A DNA stretch of 34,982 nucleotides. Source: Cardiobacteriaceae bacterium. Lineage in GTDB: Bacteria; Pseudomonadota; Gammaproteobacteria; Cardiobacteriales; Cardiobacteriaceae. The notes below the pieces were generated by a model, which was given only the letters and a program-made list of their open reading frames with translations, made no database searches and was not told the origin of the DNA. Every line of letters begins with the position of its first letter. Within the stretch, counting starts at the first letter, position 1. Below are positions 18,598 to 34,982 of the stretch, piece by piece. The stretch spans positions 1 through 34,982 of the forward strand of contig JAGBJT010000020.1 of NCBI GenBank assembly GCA_017934275.1, read 5' to 3'. Both the position numbers and the translations under genes were made by a program.

Positions 18598-19425
18598 ATG
18601 AACGCTAATACGACGGTTAAATTGCAAGAAAAATGCGATAAGGGTGAAAAAATCATAATGCTGACTTGCTATGACTATTGCACGGCGAAAAATATGGACG
18701 CGGCAGGAGTTGATGTGCTTTTAGTCGGTGATTCGCTTGGTCAGGTGATGCTTGGTTATGAAAGCCCCGTGCAAGTTACGATGGAAGATATGATTCATCA
18801 TTGCAAGGCGGTGGCGCGGGGTGCGGAAAAAGCGATGGTGCTTTGCGATATGCCGTTTTTGTCCGTGCAAACTAATACAGATGATGCAATTCGTAATGCA
18901 GGTCGCTTAATTCAAGAGGGCGGTGCAGAGGCGGTAAAAATCGAAGGTTCGCTTTATGTCGCCGACAAAATCGCGGCGATTGTTAGAGCGCAAATTCCCG
19001 TTTGTGCGCATATTGGTTTAACGCCGCAGTCGGTTTTGGCATTCGGCGGTTTCAAAACTCAAGGCAAAACTTTGCAAAGAGCCCGCGAAATTATTGATGA
19101 TGCTTTGCGGATTGAAGATGCGGGCGCGTTTATGGTGGTGTTGGAGGCAATTCCTGCGGAACTTGCGGAAATTATTAGCGATAAATTGACAATTCCGACG
19201 ATTGGTATCGGTGCGGGAAATAAATGCGACGGTCAAGTTTTAGTTTGGCAAGATATGCTGAATATGTTTCCTGATTACCGTCCGAAATTTGTAAAAATAT
19301 TCGGTGATTGCGGTTTAGAAATGCAAAACGGGGTAAAAAAATATCGCGAAGAGGTGGAAAAAGGAATATTTCCAGCCCCAGAACATTCTTATCAATTAGC
19401 AAAAGAAATAGTTGAAGAACTATAG
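18598..19425 (+). CDS. panB: 3-methyl-2-oxobutanoate hydroxymethyltransferase (stop codon supplied by a repeat)
   Basis: Transfers the methylene group of 5,10-methylene-THF to ketoisovalerate, giving ketopantoate (pantothenate pathway). The 275 residues keep the magnesium ligands D45 (LVGDSLG), D84 (LCDMPF) and E116 (KIEGS) and the catalytic E183 (VLEAIPAEL). AGGAGAT is an excellent ribosome-binding site. The last codon and TAG stop (19423-19425) lie in the TATAG that begins repeat copy 2. Without the element the frame would read through 13 more codons to a TAA inside panC. The residues after PEHSY are beyond the conserved core, so activity should be intact. Confidence 0.95.
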   Translation: MNANTTVKLQEKCDKGEKIIMLTCYDYCTAKNMDAAGVDVLLVGDSLGQVMLGYESPVQVTMEDMIHHCKAVARGAEKAMVLCDMPFLSVQTNTDDAIRNAGRLIQEGGAEAVKIEGSLYVADKIAAIVRAQIPVCAHIGLTPQSVLAFGGFKTQGKTLQRAREIIDDALRIEDAGAFMVVLEAIPAELAEIISDKLTIPTIGIGAGNKCDGQVLVWQDMLNMFPDYRPKFVKIFGDCGLEMQNGVKKYREEVEKGIFPAPEHSYQLAKEIVEEL

Positions 19426-19527
19426 TCGTTTCAATTCAAAATAAGACAAGGCAGTAAGCCGAAGACAGTATGCCTAATACGGCGAGGCGAAGCTAACGCA
19501 GTATTATTTTGAAGTGGAACGACTATA
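19421..19527 (-). repeat. 107-bp inverted-repeat element, copy 2
   Basis: Same element as at 17114, in opposite orientation: begins TATAGTCGTTTCAATTC and ends GAAGTGGAACGACTATA. It lies between panB and panC, genes that otherwise look like one operon, and its first bases form the panB stop codon. As RNA the terminal repeats would fold into a long imperfect hairpin between the two cistrons. Related elements in Neisseria are cut by RNase III when transcribed; whether that happens here is unknown. Confidence 0.92.
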
Positions 19528-34524: not shown

Positions 34525-34569
34525 AAAAACAAACGGCAAGAATTTTTTACCTCTTGCCGTTTTGTTTTT
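34525..34569. terminator. Bidirectional intrinsic terminator after dnaQ
   Basis: CGGCAAGA (34534-34541) pairs with TCTTGCCG (34552-34559); the stem extends outward through AAAAACAAA against TTTTGTTTTT with one bulge. The loop is ATTTTTTACC. T-runs on both strands allow termination from either side. Confidence 0.9.
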
Positions 34570-34858
34570 CTACCATTCAAACTTTTTTCTTTGATGACGG
34601 TTCGGATGATAATCTTCTTCCATAATTTATATGGAATATTTATCCGCTTCGACCAAGCATATTGTTCTTTTGATTGTATAAGCCTCCTCTGAAAGTAAAA
34701 CAATAAATATGCTTGGTTAAATTTGCCAGATTTAGCGATATAGTCGTTCCATTTCAAAATAATACTGCGGGAGCTTCATCGCCGTATTCTGTATACTGTC
34801 TTTAAGCTCGCTGCCTTGTCTTATTTTGAATTGAAACGACTATAAATCTGGCTTTTTT
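34570..34858 (+). ncRNA. Candidate small RNA region with anti-SD loop and repeat-interrupted terminator
   Basis: Between the dnaQ terminator and the next hairpin no protein gene is convincing. ACCAAGCATAT (34652-34662) pairs perfectly with ATATGCTTGGT (34707-34717), and the loop contains CCTCCTCT (34683-34690), complementary to a strong Shine-Dalgarno sequence. Then GCCAGATTTA (34725-34734) would pair with TAAATCTGGC (34843-34852) before six T if the intervening repeat copy were absent. Hairpin, C-rich loop and terminator on + are small-RNA features, but no promoter is clear, and on - the loop would instead read AGAGGAGG. Speculative. Confidence 0.35.
34739..34844 (+). repeat. 106-bp inverted-repeat element, copy 4, inside a terminator stem
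   Basis: Same orientation as copy 1: begins TATAGTCGTTCCATTTC, ends GAATTGAAACGACTATA; the core is the most diverged (GGGAGCTTCATCGCCG, CTTTAAGCTCGC) and one base shorter. Removing it with one TA joins GCCAGATTTA-GCGA to TAAATCTGGC and TTTTTT, a perfect 10-bp intrinsic terminator. This indicates insertion at TA with TA duplication and gives the element boundaries as TA-TAGTCG...CGACTA-TA. Confidence 0.92.
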
Positions 34859-34870
34859 ATATAAACGCCT

Positions 34871-34904
34871 AAAAAGACAAAACCGACAAGTTTCCTTGTC
34901 GGTT
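34871..34904 (-). terminator. Intrinsic terminator reading on -, near the window end
   Basis: AACCGACAAG (34881-34890) pairs perfectly with CTTGTCGGTT (34895-34904) around a four-base loop. On - it is followed by TTGTCTTTTT (34880-34871), on + by GTGTCG. It should therefore end a transcript coming from beyond the right edge on -. Confidence 0.85.
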
Positions 34905-34982
34905 GTGTCGCTGGGTTATGAAGTTGTTTATGGTCAGTGGATACCAGTCCTACCACGCGAGCTCCATTCTTAATAAAGAATG
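34905..34982. other. Unassigned right edge of the window
   Basis: No gene assigned. A frame open to the edge exists on - (reading NGARVVGLVSTDHKQLHN), but it would run through the terminator hairpin to a TAG in repeat copy 4, so it is doubtful. The last 18 bases form a small dyad, CATTCTT-aata-AAGAATG (34965-34982). I see no tRNA or rRNA match. Confidence 0.3.

Follow-up and report, generated by a model that had tools for sequence, protein, structure and literature searches.

Gene context at the contig end

The element that concerns us here lies at the right-hand end of the window, by which we mean the whole 34,982-nucleotide stretch of DNA that was analysed. Reading from the left, dnaQ is followed by a terminator hairpin of its own (34531-34562), which has a T-rich tail on both strands. 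Then, on the plus strand, come the last codons of cysK (34594-34625, reading ...DGSDDNLLP and a stop; cysK was identified by TIGR01139, above the cut-off), and these open a segment that is shared with positions 1-285 of contig C37. Behind them stands an interrupted intrinsic terminator, which is the cysK terminator over again, brought in with the last cysK codons, and not dnaQ's own. As read from the sequence, its 5′ arm GCCAGATTTA occupies 34725-34734 and its loop GCGA 34735-34738, all on the plus strand, and after a TA at 34739-34740 the body of a Correia-like MITE (TAGTCG...CGACTA) runs from 34741 to 34842, that is, over 102 bp without the duplicated TAs and 106 bp with both. The second TA (34843-34844) opens the 3′ arm of the terminator, of which the remainder, AATCTGGC, lies at 34845-34852 and is followed by a T6 tract at 34853-34858.

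The contig closes in a dispersed repeat (34871-34982) that brings its own, convergent terminator on the minus strand (34881-34904). This repeat was also seen in the same genome at both ends of C37, at the end of C45 and in C20 and C47, and in a congener in C11 and C62; several contigs break within it, and one of its frames reads MAFFIKNGARVVGLVSTDHKQLHNPATQPTR. No Rfam family was matched in the window or in the repeat regions.

Empty sites and the borders of the element

Deleting the element together with one TA, so that 34725-34740 is joined to 34845-34858, recovers GCCAGATTTA-GCGA-TAAATCTGGC-TTTTTT, a hairpin with a perfect 10-bp stem, a GCGA loop and a T6 tract (-14.3 kcal/mol, with 0 of 200 shuffles as stable), in which the target TA is the part of the 3′ arm nearest the loop and makes up the two uppermost base pairs. 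The initial annotation had claimed precisely this restoration, and the bases are indeed as it gave them. The restored site combines a GC-containing stem, a short loop and a U-tract with a position 3′ of a gene and conservation in a relative, as expected of an intrinsic terminator. The hairpin alone cannot separate duplication of TA from duplication of TATA, because either leaves a 10-bp stem.

Real empty sites do separate them. We searched the joined flanks of the insertion site in 40 genomes, among them the genome of the window itself (G000) and its sole congener in the set (G001), which we take for RGIG4814, a MAG of a Cardiobacteriaceae bacterium from the reticulum of roe deer. An empty site in the genome's own contig C37 (1-285) is identical at 282 of 285 positions, without gaps, to 34594-34982 minus the element, and has a single TA; another, in the congener (G001:C11:336-624), aligns at 89% identity with no gap at the join, again with a single TA, and reads GCCAGATTTAGCGATAAGTCTGGC followed by T8. 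In both, the intact hairpin lies directly 3′ of cysK and matches the one that had been predicted for related genomes. Duplication of TATA is ruled out by the single TA of these sites. The pattern is a general one, since across 20 congener stretches 14 sites, the present one included, align over the join with a single TA; two further interrupted terminators (L086 and L106) likewise have empty hairpins with a single TA in the congener. In addition, a nested copy (L089) splits another copy of the element at CTTGTCT-TA-TTTTGAA, and its removal with one TA restores the family consensus. The insertion site, the TA duplication and the element borders, all proposed initially from this one locus, are thus secure, with 13 further single-TA empty sites beside those of the present insertion. 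Some insertions predate the divergence of the two species, because the copy between leuD and ilvE (C37:6490-6599) occupies the same position in the congener.

Is the junction behind dnaQ real?

Why the cysK terminator should recur behind dnaQ is a fair question, and the segment may either have been truly duplicated or owe its place to an assembly junction. In the latter case the contig end would be a chimera or stem from a variant strain, with the filled terminator belonging behind cysK in another strain and the dnaQ junction at 34593/34594 being an assembly product, a possibility that we take seriously while thinking it rather doubtful. It would fit with an assembly in 63 contigs that is 73% complete, with the fact that C11 and C37 break off at one and the same base of the dispersed repeat, and with the congener, where no empty site was found directly behind dnaQ and the DNA there (L010, reverse strand) is unrelated, with several short hypothetical frames. 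Against it, the left flanks are wholly different apart from a common ATGACGG at the junction, which is short for a k-mer chimera, and the shared segment carries three mismatches, which point to a second copy that has diverged. What follows dnaQ varies in any case, since in place of the window's cysK tail the congener carries unrelated DNA, and the comparison of filled and empty sites stands, being independent of whether the junction is real.

A sister family of the Correia elements

The element belongs to a large family. Its end pattern gives 148 matches per strand in the 1.4-Mb genome of this rumen bacterium, as against at most one for a reversed control, and the 111 distinct copies that were extracted are 105-108 bp long with a mean identity of 94.7% to a consensus that is a full-length palindrome without coding function; our family analyses used stretches around about 110 copies of the roughly 148 genome matches. 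Some features of individual copies and relatives deserve mention in their own right. Alignment columns 14 and 96 represent one position of an otherwise complementary inverted repeat that varies on both sides and forms a mismatch when the consensus of either strand is folded, which may be a subfamily marker or be of relevance to the transposase. The copy at 19421-19527 lies between panB and panC and provides the panB stop codon (...VEEL and then the TAG of TATAG); in the congener, which lacks this insert, PanB ends further on (...VEQLKAQLA). To the left of the copy at 502 (L061), the flank holds an exact repeat of 31 bases around GAGATTTTTCGCCTACGGCTCAAAATGACGG that recurs in most of the fetched congener stretches, and weaker relatives of the element turn up at five places (L040-L048) in G008, from another genus of the Cardiobacteriaceae, at 72-81% identity and partly over half the length.

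How, then, should the family be classified? The consensus aligns end to end with a 107-bp Correia element of N. gonorrhoeae (73% over 107/107 bp, E 3e-6), and the homologous core reads GCGTT..CCTCGCC..GCCGTA..TACTGTCTTCGGC..GCCTTGTC. Of the two Correia length classes that we considered (104-108 and 153-157 bp), the shorter (PMC2649163) takes in both this 107-bp element and our copies of 105-108 bp. Further traits common to both are TATAG...CTATA ends, a TA target that is duplicated on insertion (as the 14 single-TA empty sites and the nested copy attest), a palindrome over the full length, the lack of coding function and more than 100 copies. As to the RNase III processing of Correia (CREE/NEMIS) transcripts, a long stem is predicted for transcripts of the present element. 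Unlike in Neisseria, the host is a member of the Cardiobacteriaceae, IS630 elements with similar ends reside in the same genomes, and the inverted repeat runs on CGTTCCAYTTCAAAATAATAC instead of GGATTAAATTTAAACC. Indeed, published variants of the Correia inverted repeat start tatagtggattaa (PMC5039591), and the best of these 26-bp variants (tatagtggattaa...) matches the MITE at 14 of 24 positions. Because homology holds for the core while the inverted repeat has diverged, we call this a Correia-like sister family and not a strict CREE. The biology is ordinary and well documented.

A likely mobiliser

Both genomes, that of the window and that of the congener, encode IS630-family transposases (PF13358), and the ends of the resident IS630-family insertion sequences, TATAGTCATTCNNNANCAAAATAGC, are identical to the MITE at 18-20 of the 24 outer positions of the inverted repeat, as would be expected for a MITE mobilised by IS630, although the two differ at 4-6 positions within those 24 bases and also beyond them. 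From these shared ends, the co-resident IS630-family insertion sequences appear to be the likeliest mobiliser of the MITE. The same argument named IS630-Spn1 as the mobiliser of RUP in Streptococcus pneumoniae, a MITE of about 107 bp with a TA target whose IS630-family partner was deduced from shared ends (PMC2229807); we liken the two by description, whereas the partner proposed here was assigned by end comparison within our own analysis. The mechanism that mobilises Correia elements was described in 2009 as undetermined (PMC2649163).

Does the interrupted terminator still work?

The initial annotation also suggested that the insertion may have altered the termination of whatever is transcribed from the left. 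The gene on that side is dnaQ, and its transcription already meets a terminator at 34531-34562. The predicted fold of the filled site is one long stem (-52.1 kcal/mol, z -8.4) in which AATCTGGC pairs with GCCAGATT, and GCCAGAUU/AAUCUGGC would still be paired beside the U-tract, continuous with the stem of the element over a 6-nt bulge; other interrupted terminators are likewise predicted to retain their basal stem. Termination is probably kept, because the predicted RNA retains an 8-bp basal stem next to the U-tract, perhaps with less efficiency or with added RNase III cleavage.

That the insertion abolishes or weakens the terminator, so that transcripts read through into the next unit, we consider unlikely. 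The top two base pairs are lost, the 110 nt from GCGA to TA now part the two arms, and an arm that lies 118 nt away may pair too late while transcription proceeds. However, eight basal pairs persist beside U6 in the predicted fold, stacked on the element's own stem, the convergent terminator of the dispersed repeat follows, and transcripts from dnaQ meet the earlier terminator.

Are hairpins preferred as targets?

A final suggestion of the initial annotation was that the element prefers hairpins. We removed the elements first, called terminator-like hairpins on both strands, and compared the insertions with other noncoding TAs. Among the 81 insertions in noncoding DNA, 8 lie in such hairpins, compared with 114 among the 2248 remaining noncoding TAs (OR 2.05, p 0.07); at dG <= -9 the comparison gives OR 2.54 (p 0.022), and other settings give p 0.055-0.22. 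Several insertions do sit at a loop or apex, with 5 of 110 at the apex of terminator hairpins against about 2.5 expected (p 0.05-0.74). Overall, terminator-like hairpins contain 8 of 110 insertions, which leaves more than 90% outside them, and among the bases around the target TA only an A/T excess at -3 and +3 stands out. The enrichment over other intergenic TAs is thus about two-fold with a borderline p of 0.02-0.22, and it is weak evidence because it comes from low counts and from more than one threshold, with only those insertions visible that survived selection, so that the proposed preference is not established, although a factor of two would still accommodate a mild one. Precedents exist, since some ISs target REP palindromes (PMC1525189) and YPAL of Yersinia reportedly inserts within dyad symmetry or next to it (PMC2229807), though the duplication here is TA and not 3-26 bp as for YPAL; in the literature on insertion into terminators we found no report of a MITE that targets them. 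Active targeting of hairpins, be they terminators or extruded cruciforms, is to us a quite improbable reading, with p values that rise under other settings, most insertions lacking such a hairpin, and selection likely to favour terminators among survivors even without targeting. The terminator hit, which may be coincidence, is as expected or about twice as expected for a TA-inserting element in AT-rich intergenic DNA, a difference that is weakly resolved.

What the insertion tells us

We are fairly confident of the picture as a whole, namely a Correia-type MITE at a TA in a terminator, probably moved by IS630, hitting terminators as often as chance would have it or about twice as often, and probably leaving termination intact. 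The non-autonomous MITE inserted at the TA at the loop-proximal end of the terminator hairpin and duplicated it, as seen from the empty sites. An IS630-family transposase, from an IS sharing the outer inverted repeat, probably moves the MITE in trans, and the hit would come about simply where a TA happens to sit in a hairpin, for an element inserting at TA in AT-rich intergenic DNA. The element transcript is predicted to fold into a long stem that would reunite the arms of the terminator, with GCCAGAUU/AAUCUGGC forming next to U6, and the terminator probably still works.

A clean pair of filled and empty sites within one genome, with another empty site in a relative, fixes where the elements of a Correia-like family, high in copy number and outside Neisseria, begin and end, and the locus illustrates how a terminator can stay foldable around a palindromic insert. 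Genomes that carry both the MITE and an IS630 with similar ends are a place to test what moves elements of the Correia type. More tentatively, and with less conviction, we can imagine a sister lineage of Correia whose IS630-family mobiliser is still resident and whose palindrome lets it sit in terminators without damaging them. If this is true, the resident IS630 transposase would show what kind of enzyme lies behind Correia elements.
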